A DNA stretch of 39,764 bases, taken from the NCBI GenBank assembly GCA_008015565.1, contig SSFV01000067.1:1-39764 (forward strand). The letters are read 5' to 3'. Shown here piece by piece: positions 29,306 through 39,006 of the stretch (position 1 is its first letter; each line of letters begins with the position of its first letter). The position numbers and the translations under genes are program-made. Under the pieces are notes generated by a model. The model ran no database searches and was not told where the DNA came from. It saw only the letters and a program-made list of their open reading frames with translations. The stretch comes from Nitrosomonas sp. Lineage in GTDB: Bacteria > Pseudomonadota > Gammaproteobacteria > Burkholderiales > Nitrosomonadaceae.

Positions 29306-31045
29306 TTACGTTAGGAAGAACTTTTCAACTTGATCGACAGGAAGTGGCTTGCTCAGGAAAAAACCTTGTACCTCGTTACAGGATTTTTTCTTGAGGAAAT
29401 CAAGTTGCGCATTGGTTTCCACGCCTTCTGCCGTTACTTTCATATTCATGCTGCCGGCCATTGCAATAATTGCGGCAGCAATGGCACCATTATCTGAATT
29501 TTGCTCTAAATTTCGAACAAAAGCTTGATCGATTTTAAGTCTGTCGATTGGAAAATTCATTAATCTGCTTAAACTTGAATAACCTGTTCCAAAATCGTCA
29601 ATTGCTAATTGAACGCCTACCTGCTTTAATTGATTCAAAATATCAATTACTAAATCGACATCGTTAATTAATGCGCTTTCTGTTAGTTCTAATTCCAGAA
29701 CTCTAGGATTGAGACCTGTTTCTGCCAAGATGGCAGCAATTTGCGCCGGAAATCCTCTATGGAGAAGTTGAACTGCAGAGACATTGACAGCAATACGATC
29801 TAGGGGAATGCCACGGCTACACCATATATTAGCTTGACTACACGCTTTACGCAGTACCCATTCGCCTATATGGATAATTAACCCGGTTTCTTCTGCTAAT
29901 GGGATAAATTCAGCGGGAGAAATTACTCCTAAGTCTCTGTTTTCCCACCTTAAGAGAACTTCTAAACCGTTAAACGTTCCTTTGTTAATATCTAACTGCG
30001 GTTGATAATGAAGCTGGAATTCATTTCGTTCGATGGCCTTTCGCAAATGGTTTTCCATCGTGAGCTTCCGAACTGCCATCTCCATCATGTAATTGGAAAA
30101 ATAGCAATACATATTGCCACCCGAACGTTTTGCATAATACATAGCTAGGTCAGCATTTTTCAGTAAATCTTCTGCAGTTAATCCATCATCCGGATAAATA
30201 GCAATACCAATACTGGTTGTTGTCGTGAGTTCATGTTCTCCAAACACAAGAGGTTGAGCCAGATTATCCCGGATACGATCTGCTACAATTGCCGCATCTT
30301 CGTTACGCTCGATTAAGGATAGTAGCGCTGTAAACTCATCACCTCCTAAGCGTGCGAGTGAGATGCTATTTTGGTTGATTCCGGCTTGCATGACGGTATC
30401 GCTTGTTCGAATACTTTTGCGTAACCGTTCGCTTGTTGCTTTAAGTACGAGATCACCTAAATGATGGCCTAGTGTATCATTGATCCGTTTAAAGCCATCA
30501 AGATCAAGAAACAGTACACCTAACTTTAATTTCTTTCTCTGTGCCAACGCAATCATTTGTTGTAAATTTTCTTGAAAAAAATGACGGTTAGGAAGTTCAG
30601 TAAGATCATCAAAGTAAGCCATATGATGTAAACGTTGCTCGCTTTGCAGTAATTGCTGAGTTGTGTAGCTGCCTTTCAGCATATACCTTACTCTGTGACT
30701 GAGTAATGGAATATTGATTGGTTTCGTAATGAAATCGGTTGCCCCGACTTCATAAGCATGGTTAATGGATTCTAAATCTTCTAATCCAGTCATCATGAGA
30801 ATTGGAATATGCCTACCATCCGGCAGGCTGCGTATTTCTGAACATGTCATGTATCCATCCATTCCTTGAGGCATCATGACATCTAGCAAAATTGCATCGA
30901 CTTTCTTTTCTTTGAATAGTTGCAGACCCTCTTCGCCACTTGAAGCTTCAATAATATTTAGACCGGCTGTTTGCAATGTTTTACTAACTACCAATCGAAT
31001 AAGTGGATCATCGTCAATAATAATGACCGTGGAGTGTTGAGACAT
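29306..31045 (-). CDS. Response regulator with REC-GGDEF-EAL (c-di-GMP turnover)
   Basis: A 579-residue regulator. The REC domain (8-120) has D11-D13, phospho-acceptor D55 (LLDVMMP) and K108 (TKP). The GGDEF domain (about 140-310) keeps GGDEF at 234-238, and no RxxD inhibitory I-site is visible before it. The EAL domain (about 325-570) has E362-V-L instead of EAL, with VNVSAVQL, ELTESALIND, IDDFGTGYSSL, KIDQAFV and AEGVETNAQ all present. Both catalytic sites look intact, so it could make and degrade c-di-GMP under phosphorylation control. The ATG at 31045 (MSQHSTVIIIDDD) is preferred over an upstream start that would add 44 unconserved residues inside the kinase gene. It begins 1 nt after the hybrid kinase stop, so the two are translationally coupled. 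Confidence 0.95.
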   Translation of the reverse strand: MSQHSTVIIIDDDPLIRLVVSKTLQTAGLNIIEASSGEEGLQLFKEKKVDAILLDVMMPQGMDGYMTCSEIRSLPDGRHIPILMMTGLEDLESINHAYEVGATDFITKPINIPLLSHRVRYMLKGSYTTQQLLQSEQRLHHMAYFDDLTELPNRHFFQENLQQMIALAQRKKLKLGVLFLDLDGFKRINDTLGHHLGDLVLKATSERLRKSIRTSDTVMQAGINQNSISLARLGGDEFTALLSLIERNEDAAIVADRIRDNLAQPLVFGEHELTTTTSIGIAIYPDDGLTAEDLLKNADLAMYYAKRSGGNMYCYFSNYMMEMAVRKLTMENHLRKAIERNEFQLHYQPQLDINKGTFNGLEVLLRWENRDLGVISPAEFIPLAEETGLIIHIGEWVLRKACSQANIWCSRGIPLDRIAVNVSAVQLLHRGFPAQIAAILAETGLNPRVLELELTESALINDVDLVIDILNQLKQVGVQLAIDDFGTGYSSLSRLMNFPIDRLKIDQAFVRNLEQNSDNGAIAAAIIAMAGSMNMKVTAEGVETNAQLDFLKKKSCNEVQGFFLSKPLPVDQVEKFFLT

Positions 31046-31046
31046 G

Positions 31047-33857
31047 TCAATGCATTCCCGTTTGGATTGAAGATGAATCAAGATAGGCTTGTAATACGAT
31101 ACAGGTTTGTGCAAATTTCTGCTGAATTGCGATAAGCGCTTGACCTGAAGCATCATAGCTCTGGTTGCGGGCATCATTTTCCACAGTGCGGCAAAGTTCA
31201 GCTAAACCATGAGCACCGACCTGGCTGCTGCTGGATTTAAGGGTGTGAGATGCCATGCGGATCGCCTTAAAATCACCTATACTCCATGCTTGTTCAAGCG
31301 TTTGTATAAGTTTTCCAGAGTTGTCGAGATAGGTTTTAATTACTTGCTTCAGTAATTCGCTTCCATAATCGGCTTCAAGAGAGCGAATAGGCGCTAACGC
31401 ATCTGGATCAATAGTTGTTTCGTTCACTTGCTTTTTTTCCGGTGTGGCAGTGGCGGAATTGGTAGCTGATTTTTGCGAATGATTCAGCCATGACTGGATC
31501 ATATTTAATAAATCTTTTGCTTTGATTGGCTTGCTAAGATAGTCATCCATGCCCGCAGACAAACATTTTTCGCGGTCGCCTTCAATCGCATTGGCTGTTA
31601 GTGCAATGATTGGAAAATAGGGGATCACCCCAGCTTTCTGATAATGCCGGATTTCACTTGTTGCTTCATATCCATCCATTTCAGGCATCATGCAATCCAT
31701 TAATACTAGGTCATAGGTTTTTCTTTTTACCGCTTCTATAGCTTCTAAACCATTATGAGCTACTTCAATAGAACAACCGAAGTTGCGCAACATTCCGATT
31801 ACAACCTCCTGATTAACTGGGTTATCTTCAGCAAGCAAGAGTTGAGCGTTCAGTTTATTAGATGTTGCGGTAAAAGTATTTTGATTTTCCATTTCAATTG
31901 GAGATTCATTCATTTTTCCCATACTTGAAACTCGCGCTTTCAAGAAACATTGATACAGATCTTTTTTCCGGATGGGTTTCGTTAAATATACAATAAACCC
32001 GGTTTTCTTGGCTTCAGCTGCTTCATCCTTAAAATGTGTGGAAGTTAGCATAATTAAAGGCATTTTCGCGATTGCAGGATCGGCTTTAATTTGTTTGCCT
32101 AATTCTAACCCATTCATATTGGCCATCTTCATGTCAATAAGCGCAAGATCATAGGCTTTATTATTCAATGCAGCTTCTTTTAATTTCTTAAGGGCTTTTG
32201 ATCCACTCGGAACAGTATCAACTTGCATATCCCAAGATTGTGCATAGGAACTTAGGATATCCCGGCTCGTACTATTATCTTCAACGATCAAGAGTTTAAT
32301 TCCGGCTAATTCTGAAGCAATGGCTTTTATTTTTCTTGATTCGATTCGTTCTGTTCCAACCTGAAACGGTAGGGCAAATGAGAAAGTGGCTCCTTCACCA
32401 AGGCGGCTTTTTACAGTAATTCCTCGTCCACCCATTAACTCAACCAATTGTTTCGATATGGCTAAACCTAATCCTGTTCCACCATATTTGCGGGTAGTGG
32501 ATCCATCTGCTTGTGAAAAAGCTTGGAATAAGCGTGGCAGTATGGAATCACTGATACCGATACCGGTATCACTTACACTAAACCTCACCCACATTGTTTG
32601 AGTGTTTTCAGTTTCAATGAGATTATTTAGATTATTTTCTAAACTCACATCGATAATAATCTCTCCGTCTTCGGTAAATTTGATTGCATTTCCTATCAAA
32701 TTTCCAAGAACTTGCCTAATTCTTGTTGGATCACCATTAACCCATTCCGCTATATTAGGTGCGATTCGATAGTTTAATTCAAGTTGTTTGCTATGCGCAC
32801 GTTCAGAAAAAAATTCAATAACATCCTCAATTGATTTGTGTAAATCAAAATCAATGTGTTCCAGCTCGAACCGGCCCGCTTCAATTTTAGAAAAATCAAG
32901 AATATCGTTAATGATTGAAAGCAATGATTCTCCAGAGTTATGCAATATATTAATGAGATGGAGTTGCCGCGCGTTTAATGGTGTATCTAATAATAGTTCC
33001 GCCATTCCCAATACACCATTCATAGGTGTTCGGATTTCGTGGCTCATGGCAGCAAGAAATTGTGATTTGGCTTGATTAGCGGCTTCAGCGGCTTCTTTTG
33101 CGTGTCTTAGTTCGACAGTGCGTGCTTCAATTTTTTGTTCAAGATCGCTATGATATTGTACAAGCTCTTGATCTCTTTGTTGTATTTGCTCAAGCATACT
33201 ATTAAAAGCATCTACCAAAGCGCCAACTTCGTCATTCTCACTGTGTTTTGTAACGCGGAAAGCATAATCTCTGGAATGCGAGACTTTTTGAGCTGTAGTG
33301 GATAAATCAAAAATTGGTTGAATTACTTTTGATGCTAAACGGCGAGCCAAGAACGTAGCGATAAGGAAAGTTATCAAAACCGATAGTGCTGAAATAATGA
33401 GATTTAGCGCAAGTTGTACCCACATTGCTCCCAATGCATAGCGTATTTCCAAGCTGCCGACGTGTTCTTCACCGGCAATCACCGGTTGTGTTACATGCAT
33501 ATCTTGAAAAGGGAGCCATGCAGGAAGCCATATTTGTTCTTCATTATAAATATTAGCGATTTCATGTCCATCTGGAGTTATTAACGATGCTTTAGAAATC
33601 GAGGGAATTTGGCGAAGTGAATTTAATGTTTCTTGTGCACTTTTGTTGTCAAGGAAAGCTAATGAAGCCTGCGAATTACTTGCTGTTACACGCGCTAAAC
33701 CTTTTAATTGGTCTTCAGCAATGATGAGTGAGCTTCTTACCTCATTGATAGCGAGTAAGACAAAAACTAACAACATCGAACTTGCCAAGCTTATTAAAAT
33801 TATCATTAATATCTTGTCTGCAATGGAGCGATTATTACCTGAAGTTTTGTCTGTCAT
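31047..33857 (-). CDS. CHASE8-HAMP hybrid histidine kinase with two REC domains and HPt (BarA-like)
   Basis: A 936-residue inner-membrane kinase. TM1 is at about 15-37. The periplasmic sensor (about 45-140) resembles the CHASE8 domain of Yfi[20 protein letters not shown], then [22 protein letters not shown]2 is at about 148-170, HAMP at 171-225 and a coiled coil at 225-265. HisKA has H273 in [15 protein letters not shown], and the ATPase (about 370-500) shows N390, the G1 box SDTGIGI and the G2 box [15 protein letters not shown]1 has D575, REC2 D721, and the HPt has H871 in [14 protein letters not shown]. All phosphorelay residues are present. It is coupled to the REC-GGDEF-EAL gene and lies downstream of the receptor-YfiR genes on the same strand, with a 363-nt spacer. 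Confidence 0.93.
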
Positions 33858-34021
33858 TGCTTGTGTCGATGAAATTATTCGGTTGGATTTTTTGCTCGTT
33901 CAATTCCGGATGAATTTTAGTAATCGTATATTTAATTTAAAGCAGGTTACCGGCTGCGCTGAAGTTTAGCGGCGATTTTTACTTAGTATCATTCAATAAT
34001 ACAATTATGCTATTCATATCA

Positions 34022-34041
34022 AGTAATTCTTGCAAATTACT
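34022..34041. repeat. Perfect 7-bp inverted repeat upstream of hybrid kinase
   Basis: AGTAATT, spacer CTTGCA, AATTACT. It lies about 165 nt upstream of the kinase start. It shares the half-site AATTAC with the dyad at 34131-34148. Possible operator; not followed by T-runs. Confidence 0.35.
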
Positions 34042-34130
34042 GACAACGAGTATCGGCCTGTTTTGGGCAATCTTGAGTTGCGCAGGAACACCTCCAATAC
34101 ACTTTTAACTTGATATGAAAACGTAAACAG

Positions 34131-34148
34131 AATTACTTTTAGGTAATT
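34131..34148. repeat. 6-bp inverted repeat with shared half-site
   Basis: AATTAC, spacer TTTTAG, GTAATT. The same half-site as at 34022-34041 but with the arms in the opposite order and the same 6-nt spacer. It lies 73-90 nt downstream of the end of the receptor gene at 34221. Confidence 0.3.
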
Positions 34149-34220
34149 ATTATGATTACTAACCACTAGATTAGCAGCGGTTAGAGTCATTGAGTCAAAT
34201 TAGTAACGCGGTAGAATCGA

Positions 34221-36329
34221 TTAATATCGCCATTCGAAGCCGCCATAAACTCCTCTGGGAATATAACTTGCAATAGTCGGTATAAAATCAGATTGAGATT
34301 CCCGGTGATGCTGACTGAACAAATTTTGTCCGACTAGGAAGAATTCAATATTTCTTGTGTATTTCCAAGCAAGCTTTGCATCCATCGTAACATATTGAGG
34401 AATATTGAAGAATGCTAACCCGCTAACATAACGTAACCAAAGATTAAGTTGTAGTTTTTCTGAGGAATCATGATTGGAACGCAGCGAAAATTGATGCTGT
34501 GGGTTAGCTTTGGCTGCACCACCCGATGTGGAGTCGAGTTGTCTGAATTCGGGGTTGGATTTTGTATGGATATCCAAGAAAGAATAACTTCCTTGTAAGC
34601 GCCATTTTTCATAAGGCCGCCAATCAATAGACGATTCGATACCATAGGAATAGGCTGAAGTGCCGTTACTGAAAAAAACCGGCATAATCAGATGGGGAAG
34701 TATGCCATTCCCCGGTACAATTTCGCCCGGCCTGAAATCCCGTAACTGGCTATAATCATTGAAGAAACCTGCCAGATCAATGGATGCATTAGCAGTAAGT
34801 GTGTGACGATAGCCCATTTCGTAAGCAATCAATTTTTCTGAATCGAAACGATCGGTTCCTTGCACAACCATCATGACAGGTACCGGTAAAACCGGAATAC
34901 CCGGAAGTGATTGAAGCACTCTTCCGGTGATGGTGACATCATTTTCACCTCGTGAGGGGATACGTACCGCGCGAGATATCGCAGCCCAAACTGAATTATA
35001 TTCGTTGGGTGTCCACATTAACCGGCCACTTGGCTGAACTTCCAGACCCGTAAAATCGTTGTGATCGAAGCGTGTGCCAAGCGATAATTGCAATTTATCA
35101 GGGAGTAGTGTGATTTCATCACGAATAAATGCGCTGAAATTGTGATTGGTTTTTTGCTGTGGAGTAAAAATCGTCAATTCGGTTGCTGGGACTTTGTTGT
35201 TATACAACCGATAATTCAGTCCCCATGTGATATCGTGCCGATCGTAAAGCGGTAAACGGTGCTGAAAGTCCACGTCAAAGCTTTCTGCATATTTTGTCCA
35301 GGGAATTAACTGATTCTGAACGCGATCGTAATAAGTCTGCAGCATGATGGATGATTTTTCCGAGAACTTCCGGTCCCACCGTAAACGAATGTTTCCTCCC
35401 TTTTCATGCGTATCGACAACATCAAGGCGTGTAAAAGGGGATATTAATGTGGGCTGCTGCAGGCTATCGCCGATACTATTGACAAAAATATCGCCTTGCA
35501 GAGTTACATGATCGATGCCACGCGAGTGATCTATGCGAAAACCCGCTCGTGCCGATTGCCACTTGTCTTGTGCGTTCATTCCCGAGAGCGAGTGAGTATT
35601 GTCTCTGGCAAATCCTTTGGCGTAGATGCGAAAGGGTGTGTCTTCATTTAACTTGCCACCATATCGAGCGCCTGCAAAGGCCCGTTCAAAACTGCCGCCA
35701 CCGGCTGTAAACAAGATTCCTTGGGTGTCGGCAGCTTTTTTGGTAATAATGTTGATGACTCCGTTCACTGCATTGGCTCCCCACACTGTGGCGCCGGGGC
35801 CACGGATAACTTCAATGCGTTCGATATCTTCAATAAAGGTATCCTGCTGACTCCAGATTACACCGGAGAATAGTGGTGTGTACACACTACGGCCATCGAT
35901 GAGAACTTGTAATTTGTTGGCAAAACGTCCATTAAAACCACGGATGCTGATCGACCATTTATCCGTGCCAATGCGGGCGACTTCTACACCTGGCGCCATC
36001 CTTAACGCATCCGGAATATTCGTGGCACCGGAACGTCTGATATCGTCTTGGGTAATCACAAATACCGCAGAGGCCACCTCGCTCAGTTTTTGCGAGCGCC
36101 GGGATGCGCTCGTTACTTCAACTTTCATCAGCTCTTCGATAGATAAATCCAACAAAGGATTATCGCTGCGCTTACCATTTGCGAATGTCAAATTCGCACA
36201 ACAGCATAAAGCGATAATGATGAGAACTTTTTGTTTAAGTAATTGTTGTCTCGAATGGTTGTTTATGGCGATGGCTAAATTTTTCTGGATCTCTGGGCGG
36301 AAGCTTGGTAATGCAATCACCGGCATCAT
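34221..36329 (-). CDS. TonB-dependent outer-membrane receptor (paralogue 1)
   Basis: A 702-residue TonB-dependent transporter/receptor. A signal peptide with a long basic front part (hydrophobic core VLIIIALCCCANLTFA, about 35-50) is followed by a short linker NPLLDLSIEELMKVEVTS. The plug domain (about 72-190) shows FVITQDDIRRSGATNIPDAL, IRGFNGRFANKLQVLIDGRS and VIRGPGATVWGANAVNGVIN. A 22-strand-type barrel ends in the aromatic C-terminus GGFEWRY. It starts 2 nt after the yfiR-like gene, with an AGGGG site 9 nt upstream, and is translationally coupled to it. Very similar to the receptor at 36952-39006. The DLSIEELMKVEVTS linker is typical of receptors found next to DUF4154 proteins. Its ligand is unknown. 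Confidence 0.94.
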   Translation of the reverse strand: MMPVIALPSFRPEIQKNLAIAINNHSRQQLLKQKVLIIIALCCCANLTFANGKRSDNPLLDLSIEELMKVEVTSASRRSQKLSEVASAVFVITQDDIRRSGATNIPDALRMAPGVEVARIGTDKWSISIRGFNGRFANKLQVLIDGRSVYTPLFSGVIWSQQDTFIEDIERIEVIRGPGATVWGANAVNGVINIITKKAADTQGILFTAGGGSFERAFAGARYGGKLNEDTPFRIYAKGFARDNTHSLSGMNAQDKWQSARAGFRIDHSRGIDHVTLQGDIFVNSIGDSLQQPTLISPFTRLDVVDTHEKGGNIRLRWDRKFSEKSSIMLQTYYDRVQNQLIPWTKYAESFDVDFQHRLPLYDRHDITWGLNYRLYNNKVPATELTIFTPQQKTNHNFSAFIRDEITLLPDKLQLSLGTRFDHNDFTGLEVQPSGRLMWTPNEYNSVWAAISRAVRIPSRGENDVTITGRVLQSLPGIPVLPVPVMMVVQGTDRFDSEKLIAYEMGYRHTLTANASIDLAGFFNDYSQLRDFRPGEIVPGNGILPHLIMPVFFSNGTSAYSYGIESSIDWRPYEKWRLQGSYSFLDIHTKSNPEFRQLDSTSGGAAKANPQHQFSLRSNHDSSEKLQLNLWLRYVSGLAFFNIPQYVTMDAKLAWKYTRNIEFFLVGQNLFSQHHRESQSDFIPTIASYIPRGVYGGFEWRY

Positions 36330-36331
36330 AA

Positions 36332-36937
36332 TTATCGTCCCCTCACTTGACGGGCGATTTGTAATAGTTGCGCATTGAATTTGATTCCGGCGCGTCTGGC
36401 GTATTTGAGATTGATTGAGAAACTCAGATTCTTGCCATCATTATTTAATTGGATCATGCCCCCTGCATCGAGAAAATCATTGACGTTGCTGACCGTAAGA
36501 ATGGGTTTGCCGGCAGCAGCGCTGAGCCATTCATGAATGTGCTGAATACCTTCTTCACGCGGCAAGAATAAGAGTTGACAACTATTCAAGGATTCGTTGT
36601 AGGCAATGCGTCTTATACTTACCGGTTTGTTTTGCGCGATGCGGCCTAGGATCGCGTCCAATTCTTCAAATTCCGGCTTTATACTGGTGCAAATTGTTAC
36701 TTCACTATCAAAGGCATCATCGGGCCATTCGGTGAATTTTAAAAAATTGTAAAGAAAGGCGGCCGTTAATGTTTGTTCACTTGCTATGGGTTGTGCGGAA
36801 GCGAGTGAGGTAGGCCCTACTGTGCTGGCGATAGCAATAATTAATCCAATAATGAAGTGTCTTATTTTTGCAAAGCGGGGCCCTGCGCTCAAATAGGCAA
36901 TATTAAAATTAATTGAAAATGAATGGAATACAATCAT
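36332..36937 (-). CDS. YfiR-like periplasmic protein (DUF4154)
   Basis: A 201-residue protein of the YfiR/DUF4154 family. In Pseudomonas, YfiR is a periplasmic repressor that binds the CHASE8 domain of the diguanylate cyclase YfiN. Here a signal peptide (hydrophobic core FIIGLIIAIAST, cleavage near ASA at 46-48) precedes the domain: ASEQTLTAAFLYNFLKFTEWP, CQLLFLP, KPILTVSNVNDFLDAGGMIQL and LSFSINLKYARRAGI. Two mature Cys, C83 and C120, may form a disulfide. The ATG at 36937 is chosen; a GTG at 36964 overlapping the receptor gene would add nine residues. It sits between two receptor genes in one operon, upstream of a CHASE8 kinase. The family call is secure; its partner is inferred. Confidence 0.92.
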   Translation of the reverse strand: MIVFHSFSINFNIAYLSAGPRFAKIRHFIIGLIIAIASTVGPTSLASAQPIASEQTLTAAFLYNFLKFTEWPDDAFDSEVTICTSIKPEFEELDAILGRIAQNKPVSIRRIAYNESLNSCQLLFLPREEGIQHIHEWLSAAAGKPILTVSNVNDFLDAGGMIQLNNDGKNLSFSINLKYARRAGIKFNAQLLQIARQVRGR

Positions 36938-36951
36938 TTGCCGGATAAACT

Positions 36952-39006
36952 TTAAAAGCGCCACTGCGCACCTGCATAGACACCGCGTGGAATAGTAGTT
37001 GCGAGCGAGGGAATAAAATCTGAAACAAATTCCATGTGGTTTTGGCTAAACAGATTTTGACCGACGATAAACAACTCAAGATTTTTTATAGGCGTATACA
37101 TTACTTTTGTGTCCATAGTAACGTAACCTGGAATGCGATAAAGATCTACACTGCTGGCATATCGCAGCCATAGATTAAATTGCATTTTTTCCGATAAGTC
37201 GAAGTTTGACCGGAAAGACACTTGATGCTGCGGCGAAACTTTATCGGCGCTGCCTGTAGTCGGATCTATTTGCCGGAATGGTGAACTGGAATCGATATGC
37301 ATGTGCAAGAAACTGTAATTGGCTTGCAAGCGCCATCTTTCAACTGGACGCCAATCCGCCGAAACTTCAACGCCGTATGTTTGCCCTTTAGCGTTATTGT
37401 TCAATCCCAATGGCAATAACAAATGCGGCGGGAAACTTGACTGGAACGCTAAAGATCCAAAAGATAAATCACGCAACTTACTGTAGTCATTGAAGAAAGT
37501 GGCTATGTCGAGGGACGCTTGCGGAGAAAATTGATGACGATATCCTAATTCGTAAGCCAATAGCTTTTCAGCATTAAATCGCGAGGAGCCTACTAATTGC
37601 GCTAGCAAAGGAAGAGGAAGTAAGGCCGAAGTTCCAGGAATTGCATCAAATGTGCGCGTACTGAGCAAAATATCATTTTCGGCGCGGGAAGGTGTACGAA
37701 CTGCGCGGGAAATCGCTGCCCAGATTGAATTCTTTGAATCCGGTGTCCACATGATTCGTGAATTCGGTTGAATTTCCAATCCTGTGAAATCATTGTGATC
37801 GAGACGAACGCCCAATGTGAGCCTCAAATGCTCCGGGATGAGCATTATTTCATCGCGCACATAAACACTGGCAAGATGATTGGTTTGCTGGCGGGGCAAC
37901 ATGCTCAATAGTTCAGTATCGAATACCTTGTTAGCATATAGGCGGTAATGAGCGCCCCAAATCAGGTCATGCCGGCTAAATAATGGAAAATGATGCTGGA
38001 AATCGATGTCGAAGCTTTCTGCTCTAAACTGAGAGACAGTTGATAAACGGTAATCCACTCGATCGTAATAGCTTTGCAGCATAATGGCCGATTTTTCCGA
38101 GAAAGTCCGATCCCAGCGAAAACGTATATTGCCGCCTTCATTATGGCCTCTCGCTGTATCGGCTTGAATAACCGGTGCGTTCAGCAGGGATTTATCCAAG
38201 GTGTCGCCAATTGAATTGTAAAAAATATCGCCTTGCAGCGTTAACTGGTCATTGCCACGGTTGTGATCTAAGCGGAATCCGCCTCGGGCACTGTGCCAGG
38301 CATCGTTGACGCGCTCGTCCGCGCTGGATTTCATATTATCCCGGCTAAAACCCTTGGCATATAAACGAAAAGGGGTTTGTTCATTAATTTTTCCACCATA
38401 ACGCGCACCGGCAAAACCATGTTCAAAACTTCCACCCCCGGCAGTAAATAGCGTGCCTTGAGTATCTGCGGCCTTTTTCGTAATGATATTGATAACGCCA
38501 TTGACTGCATTAGCACCCCATACCGCTGCGCCCGGGCCGCGAATCACTTCAATTCGTTCGATGTCTTCCATCAGCGTATCTTGCTGTTCCCATTGCACAC
38601 CGGCAAACAGCGGGTTGTAAACACTGCGGCCATCCATTAGCACTTGCAATTTATCGGCAAAGCGGCCATTAAATCCACGGATATTGATCGCCCATTTATC
38701 GGTTCCGATACGCGCAACTTCAACGCCAGGTGCCATGCGCAACGCCTCGGGGATAGATGTTGCACCGGATCGTCTGATATCGTCCTGAGTAATTACAAAT
38801 ACAGCGGATGAAACTTCGGTAAGCTTTTCCGCGCGCTTGGATACCGATGTCACTTCCACCTTCATTAGCTCTTCGATGGATAAATCAAGTAACGGGTTGT
38901 CCTTTTGTTTATTTGCAGCAAAAACAAAATTTTCGTAGCTGAAAATTGCAGAAATTATTAATAATCCAAGCCTTAATAATTGCATTAAGCGATTGTTGAA
39001 GACCAT
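36952..39006 (-). CDS. TonB-dependent outer-membrane receptor (paralogue 2)
   Basis: A 684-residue receptor that is highly similar to the one at 34221-36329 from linker to C-terminus, in both plug and barrel (for example ALRMAPGVEVARIGTDKW in both). The signal peptide (LLRLGLLIISAIFSYENFVFA) differs in sequence. The linker NPLLDLSIEELMKVEVTS is identical. Plug motifs: FVITQDDIRRSGATSIPEAL and VIRGPGAAVWGANAVNGVIN. The barrel ends GAQWRF, with the terminal Phe recognised by the Bam machinery. It is the first gene of the receptor operon; no Shine-Dalgarno site is obvious before the ATG. Divergences cluster in predicted extracellular loops, so the two may bind different ligands of one class. Confidence 0.94.
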   Translation of the reverse strand: MVFNNRLMQLLRLGLLIISAIFSYENFVFAANKQKDNPLLDLSIEELMKVEVTSVSKRAEKLTEVSSAVFVITQDDIRRSGATSIPEALRMAPGVEVARIGTDKWAINIRGFNGRFADKLQVLMDGRSVYNPLFAGVQWEQQDTLMEDIERIEVIRGPGAAVWGANAVNGVINIITKKAADTQGTLFTAGGGSFEHGFAGARYGGKINEQTPFRLYAKGFSRDNMKSSADERVNDAWHSARGGFRLDHNRGNDQLTLQGDIFYNSIGDTLDKSLLNAPVIQADTARGHNEGGNIRFRWDRTFSEKSAIMLQSYYDRVDYRLSTVSQFRAESFDIDFQHHFPLFSRHDLIWGAHYRLYANKVFDTELLSMLPRQQTNHLASVYVRDEIMLIPEHLRLTLGVRLDHNDFTGLEIQPNSRIMWTPDSKNSIWAAISRAVRTPSRAENDILLSTRTFDAIPGTSALLPLPLLAQLVGSSRFNAEKLLAYELGYRHQFSPQASLDIATFFNDYSKLRDLSFGSLAFQSSFPPHLLLPLGLNNNAKGQTYGVEVSADWRPVERWRLQANYSFLHMHIDSSSPFRQIDPTTGSADKVSPQHQVSFRSNFDLSEKMQFNLWLRYASSVDLYRIPGYVTMDTKVMYTPIKNLELFIVGQNLFSQNHMEFVSDFIPSLATTIPRGVYAGAQWRF

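Follow-up and report, generated by a model that had tools for sequence, protein, structure and literature searches.

Can a kinase whose own periplasmic regulator has decayed remain under the control of a paralogous regulator, and what stands at the outer-membrane end of such a system? These questions are raised by a stretch of 39,764 nucleotides from Nitrosomonas sp. (contig SSFV01000067.1 of GenBank assembly GCA_008015565.1), hereafter the window, which is contig C46 of a draft genome of 2.6 Mb that is 91% complete. Five genes on its minus strand encode two TonB-dependent receptors (TonB1 and TonB2) on either side of a YfiR-like periplasmic protein (YfiRa), a hybrid histidine kinase with a CHASE8 input domain, and a REC-GGDEF-EAL response regulator. 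We consider it probable that this cluster represents, in Nitrosomonas, a widespread module for signaling across the envelope, composed of a TonB receptor of the TOL_0244 family, YfiR and a CHASE8 hybrid kinase. In the window the module comes with a REC-GGDEF-EAL output, and YfiRa most likely acts on the kinase in trans.

Loss of the YfiR gene next to the kinase

The TonB2 and kinase genes are separated by 363 nucleotides (nt; 33858-34220), and this gap holds a relic of the C-terminal part of a YfiR gene (33901-34143, minus strand), degenerate and interrupted by stops. All eight YfiR queries taken from the window and its relatives found it by tblastn, with a best match of 43.5 bits (E 1.6e-10); 200 shuffled versions of the best query all stayed under 40 bits, with a maximum of 22.3. 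The N-terminal part of this second gene, YfiRb, was not found. Since four relatives (G205-G208) keep an intact YfiRb directly before the kinase, with YfiRa upstream, the sequences indicate that the window kinase has lost its own YfiRb, the relic of which lies between two units that still stand side by side.

The gene orders of the relatives outline this history. The order is TonB1-YfiRa-TonB2-TonB3-YfiRb-kinase-regulator in G207, while G208 has YfiRa, one more receptor in two pieces, YfiRb, kinase and regulator, and G205 and G206 have YfiRa, several receptors, YfiRb, kinase and regulator. Genomes G203 and G204 present the order TonB-YfiRa-TonB-TonB-kinase-regulator, with no YfiR match ahead of the kinase, and G178 the order TonB-YfiR-kinase-regulator. 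Searches by tblastn upstream of the kinase found no YfiR in loci L262 (562 nt), L263 (565 nt), L260 (801 nt) and L261 (385 nt); the gap of L263 holds a 31-nt stretch that is 84% identical to the window relic.

In midpoint-rooted trees the kinases and the YfiR proteins each split into two clades, which correspond to one another by linkage; long branches are flagged for G014k2 and L158. YfiRa and YfiRb fall in one clade, in which their branching order is not resolved, and the window YfiRa groups with those of G200 and G202. The intact YfiRa is a paralogue of the lost YfiRb and is probably not the ancestral neighbor of the kinase. The first-pass annotation of the window had taken the YfiR and the CHASE8 kinase of the cluster as partners; the gene neighborhood of YfiR and CHASE8 holds order-wide (see below), but in the window the expected partner is the relic. 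It had also expected the two units to occur together across related genomes, as they do in G205-G208; in G200 and G202 they are not adjacent.

A recurrent neighborhood of receptor, YfiR and kinase

Among 200 sampled genomes of the order to which Nitrosomonas belongs, CHASE8 was found in 67 (48 above the Pfam cut-off) and YfiR in 42, and all 65 YfiR neighborhoods were annotated with hidden Markov models seeded from the window. TonB lies directly upstream of 45 of these YfiR genes, CHASE8 directly downstream of 51, and both conditions hold for 36; as a control, 6 of the 979 remaining genes in these stretches have TonB directly upstream. The survey thus supports the conserved synteny that had been anticipated for the three genes. 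It is very improbable that the neighborhood lacks function and reflects chance or shared iron regulation. The number of receptor paralogues in the cluster does differ between relatives, as would be expected of such an arrangement, but the control rejects adjacency by chance, the module recurs in several phyla, and the TOL_0244 receptor family is itself tied to YfiR.

The outer-membrane partner varies with the output of the CHASE8 protein. TonB is upstream for 27 of 32 non-fused kinases, 6 of 9 GGDEF-EAL proteins and none of 7 GGDEF-only proteins (classes that exclude three cases with cut or split kinases), and an OmpA (YfiB-type) gene stands beside CHASE8 in 5 of the 7 GGDEF-only cases; none was found for the other two, L083 and L128, with one neighbor each scanned. 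None of the five cluster genes of the window has an OmpA match in Pfam, TonB receptors being present instead. The proposal that TonB receptors occupy the slot of YfiB agrees with this split.

A set of 79 named loci, chosen for likeness to the Nitrosomonas YfiR (best of 343 relatives) and overlapping in part with the order sample, has TonB upstream of 66 of 86 YfiR genes and CHASE8 downstream of 59. Kinases make up 45 of these, and a REC-GGDEF(-EAL) gene comes next in 14 of the 45. According to record titles, the loci span Verrucomicrobia, Acidobacteria, Planctomycetota, Nitrospira and Krumholzibacteriia. In two Rugamonas loci (L175 and L188) the CHASE8 kinase and GGDEF-EAL parts lie in one open reading frame (ORF) of 1834 amino acids or are followed by an ORF of 2791 amino acids, and a TonB receptor gene lies upstream on the opposite strand.

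Both window receptors (TonB1, 36952-39006; TonB2, 34221-36329; minus strand) carry the Pfam plug and barrel domains, are about 63% identical, and exceed the cut-off of 645 bits of the NCBIfam model of the TOL_0244 family, NF053590 (650.9 and 649.1 bits, respectively). Of the listed places with a receptor of 590 bits or more, 24 of 26 have a YfiR gene no more than 6 kb away, compared with 1 of 27 for weaker scores; at most six candidates were scored per genome. TonB1 bears an N-terminal LDLSIEELMKVEV segment ahead of the plug. Across five Nitrosomonas genomes, 14 of the 16 receptors encoded at most 5 kb from YfiR have an LSLEELM-like segment ahead of the plug, as do 3 of the 39 plug proteins encoded elsewhere; the pattern was composed after viewing the sequences, which makes these counts descriptive, and for six of the 39 far proteins the plug was not located and the longest ORF was taken. 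The pattern misses two YfiR-near receptors (L301 and L316), where similar segments are visible by eye, and of its three far matches L293 may be the other half of a receptor cut on contig C108, L335 looks spurious, and L282 is truly unlinked. A first pattern proved too strict (40 of 159 linked and 13 of 54 unlinked receptors, with linkage judged on short stretches) and was discarded. Two receptors of relatives, TonB3 in G207 and the one in G178, belong to another type (25-36% identity to TonB1 and TonB2, two of the comparisons covering fewer than 190 residues), and the third one in G204 matches the TonB1/TonB2 type.

Likely control of the kinase by YfiRa

The contact proposed for YfiR on the periplasmic domain of YfiN is an AAVVF patch in which a Phe is central (PMC3375315). 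The ASLAF motif in the window CHASE8 carries this residue (Phe68), which in the kinase model sits directly past helix 63-67. Among 134 distinct CHASE8 segments, the Phe is kept in 109 of the 110 that have YfiR directly upstream and in 13 of the 24 that do not; these segments are mutually related, so that a Fisher value is a guide only. The 24 non-adjacent segments include the five Nitrosomonas kinases of the clade of the window (window, G200, G202, G203 and G204), all of which keep the Phe. The remaining 19 have it in 8 cases, some with a YfiR elsewhere in the same stretch, and lack it in 11.

The CHASE8 of the window differs from those of G200 and G202 by 0.12-0.13 nonsynonymous (dN) and 1.4-2.0 synonymous (dS) substitutions per site, dS being near saturation. 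Similar values separate the CHASE8 segments of G207 and G208, in which YfiRb is intact (dN 0.14, dS 1.81). This pattern indicates that the CHASE8 of the window kinase is under purifying selection. Furthermore, a natural fusion in G014, of the same genus, joins a YfiR domain to HisKA-HATPase-REC (L072:6042-8636, minus strand) and reads as independent support for signaling from YfiR to kinase. By eye, its linker looks like a coiled coil and a membrane segment.

YfiRa (36332-36964, minus strand) belongs to DUF4154 (PF13689, 134.4 bits), and its domain is 94% identical to the YfiR of Nitrosomonas sp. JAMMSM_AOB_3. It matches the YfiR of the Protein Data Bank entry 4zhu by sequence (E 1.4e-6), and its model, with a predicted local distance difference test (pLDDT) of 92, matches P. 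aeruginosa YfiR (4yna and 4yn7) with a template modeling (TM) score of about 0.8 (0.82 to 4yna). A by-eye reading of the alignment from the 4zhu search shows counterparts of Phe162, Cys71 and Cys110 and none for Cys145 and Cys152.

A number of observations weigh against the proposed reading. YfiRa is never the direct neighbor of the kinase in relatives with both YfiR genes. In G200 and G202 an opposite-strand gene follows TonB1-YfiRa-TonB2 and the kinase-regulator pair lies on another contig, where no YfiR was found (for G202, within 385 nt upstream only). When the window kinase is compared with those of these two genomes, no segment is less conserved than CHASE8 (79-80% versus 81-93% identity). 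YfiRa scores 107.5 bits against NF053591 (TOL_0243 YfiR-like, cut-off 125) and the kinase 137.3 bits against NF053592 (YfiR-associated histidine kinase, cut-off 194). The residues of the YfiB-binding pocket are kept in YfiRa in part only, as read by eye from the alignment, and some YfiR-linked receptors are not of the TOL_0244 type (141 bits in G178 and 161 bits in G144). Across the order sample, TonB is missing directly upstream of 20 of the 65 YfiR genes and CHASE8 directly downstream of 14, that of the window included; a REC-GGDEF(-EAL) gene directly follows only 4 of 32 kinases, as does a plain REC gene (4 of 32). Neither YfiR nor CHASE8 was found in G062 and G106, two of the five other genomes of the genus sampled.

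The relic in the gap, the unlinked units of G200 and G202 and the fast-changing CHASE8 would all fit a kinase that escaped YfiR control when YfiRb was lost, becoming constitutive or answering another cue, with TonB1-YfiRa-TonB2 serving something else. Disruption of yfiR in P. aeruginosa is known to release YfiN (PMC3375315). We nevertheless consider such an escape unlikely, given that the motif with the contact Phe is intact in all five kinases of the clade and that dN lies far under dS in CHASE8. Control by YfiRa in trans is likely and is favored over loss of control because the Phe is kept, because of the dN/dS pattern, and because YfiRa shares a clade with YfiRb.

Domains, sites and layout of the cluster

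The kinase (31047-33857, minus strand) contains CHASE8 at residues 47-138 (PF17152, 49.5 bits against a cut-off of 27, E 5e-13), followed by HAMP, HisKA, HATPase, two REC and Hpt domains in Pfam. The CHASE8 reading of its periplasmic segment, first made from the letters alone, is upheld by this match, which rules out a misreading. CHASE8 is here joined to HisKA-HATPase-REC-REC-Hpt and not to GGDEF. No sequence relative of this CHASE8 was found in the Protein Data Bank. For the model of the kinase N-terminus (pLDDT 83, predicted TM score 0.57), the best match to a single domain is the periplasmic output domain of LapD (4u64); the top two matches of that search are integrative models of whole proteins. 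Residues H273, D575, D721 and H871 of the kinase and D55 of the regulator sit where the first-pass annotation had placed them.

The regulator (29306-31045, minus strand) has REC, GGDEF and EAL domains in Pfam. Its ATG start lies 1 nt past the kinase stop, and an alternative longer reading of its frame extends to 31177. The GGDEF motif is intact and the EAL motif reads EVL, with DDFG and AEGVE both in place. An RTSD sequence, a possible place for the inhibitory site (I-site), lies 17 residues from GGDEF (residues 213-234), with the same length or one residue more or less in relatives; the usual I-site spacing is shorter.

All five ORFs of the cluster were recovered in the order first described. 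TonB1 and YfiRa overlap by 13 nt at the listed GTG, and YfiRa and TonB2 are 2 nt apart. A scan of the cluster for promoters and terminators gave counts below those of shuffles (promoters, 20 versus 25.2 expected; terminators, 4 versus 9.9).

Proposed mechanism and other YfiR units

In the module as we envision it, periplasmic YfiR would bind the ASLAF patch of CHASE8 and hold the kinase in one state, of either sign. A ligand-loaded or TonB-engaged receptor would then take YfiR away or alter it, upon which the kinase would pass phosphate from H273 through D575 or D721 and H871 to D55 of the regulator, and the phosphorylated regulator would shift the level of cyclic di-GMP (c-di-GMP). With its own YfiRb decayed, the kinase would be regulated in trans by the paralogue YfiRa, possibly together with the YfiRs of two other receptor units.

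The receptor step could take another form that is compatible with the rest of this scheme. The TonB receptor would import a ligand that YfiR binds as a periplasmic solute sensor, and the complex would control CHASE8. This variant is tentative and we lean away from it, even though vitamin B6 and L-Trp are ligands of P. aeruginosa YfiR and the proteins closest to it in structure bind small molecules (PMC4887326). The YfiRa model likewise matches the substrate-binding proteins 5z6v and 8wgl (TM score 0.57-0.58). The reported affinities are, however, in the tens of millimolar (PMC4887326), and the partial conservation of the YfiRa pocket also counts against a solute sensor.

The genome as a whole contains three YfiR genes and one CHASE8 protein. 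Contig C9 carries a TonB-YfiR pair (L005 3856-6469) with no adjoining kinase. Contig C108 (L006 8335-12137) carries a cut TonB receptor, YfiR, a stand-alone HPt and an HDOD-REC-GGDEF gene. A TonB gene fragment cut at a contig end (L342, C87:1-5000) may represent the missing half of that receptor. The C108 HPt shares 43-51% identity with the C-terminal HPt of second-clade kinases, compared with 36% for the window kinase, and the same unit occurs in G200, G201 and G202; no kinase remnant was found between its YfiR and HPt. Three YfiR genes and one CHASE8 protein were found in G200 and in G202, and three YfiR genes and no CHASE8 in G201, drafts in which genes may be missing.

This content suggests that several receptors may converge on the single window kinase, because there are two more TonB-YfiR units, one of them having a lone HPt at the place taken by a kinase in relatives. 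A bolder scheme, which we regard as speculative and rather doubtful, is a consolidated network in which all three TonB-YfiR units (window, C9 and C108) feed the one remaining CHASE8 kinase, and this kinase drives two c-di-GMP enzymes, its own REC-GGDEF-EAL protein and, via a stand-alone HPt that survives from a second kinase since lost, the HDOD-REC-GGDEF cyclase. Nutrient receptors would then govern c-di-GMP by way of a YfiR pool shared in the periplasm, and the LSLEELM-like segment would be the piece that docks YfiR.

Relation to known systems and significance

The YfiBNR system of P. aeruginosa shares with the window the YfiR fold, a CHASE8 input with the proposed contact Phe, the c-di-GMP output and an outer-membrane partner gene. 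The window differs in that its output would run through a phosphorelay to a separate REC-GGDEF-EAL protein, its partner gene encodes a TonB receptor and not the OmpA-like YfiB, and, by our own count, YfiRa has a counterpart of the Cys71-Cys110 pair only and not of Cys145-Cys152 (numbering of PMC4887326). Outputs of the histidine-kinase, HPT and GGDEF-EAL types on YfiN-like proteins were already reported by Malone et al. in 2012 (PMC3375315), whose variants share the idea of YfiR with a CHASE8/PAS kinase and include a Thauera system of two YfiRs and one hybrid kinase. However, TonB has no occurrence in the main text of that paper, and its variant-systems section presents no decayed YfiR beside a kept kinase. 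The NCBIfam models NF053590, NF053591 and NF053592 record the same three-gene association by name and number, but the window YfiR and kinase fall under their cut-offs and the database names carry no mechanism. HmrABCX of Caulobacter also has a hybrid kinase with a LapD-like periplasmic domain that is proposed to act on c-di-GMP via HPTs; its input is the membrane protein HmrC, its diguanylate cyclase DgcB is separate, and YfiR has no occurrence in the text (PMC11481889).

The general idea of the first-pass annotation is right, yet less new than first thought. The label of a poorly described system has to be narrowed in view of the kinase and HPT outputs of 2012 (PMC3375315) and the existing NCBIfam models; what remains of it is the link to TonB, with no description of a TonB-YfiR-kinase operon found in the open-access PMC literature among the matches listed. 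The matches listed likewise gave no description of the decay of YfiRb, of the stand-alone HPt at the place taken by a kinase in relatives, of the association counts at the level of residues and receptors, or of the split between OmpA and TonB by output type.

If true, the proposed module would provide a testable route from TonB-dependent uptake to c-di-GMP, one that would bypass the FecR/sigma-factor pathway, in a group of nitrifiers whose aggregation matters for wastewater treatment. The decayed YfiRb would in turn constitute a natural experiment on the swapping of partners among YfiR paralogues.

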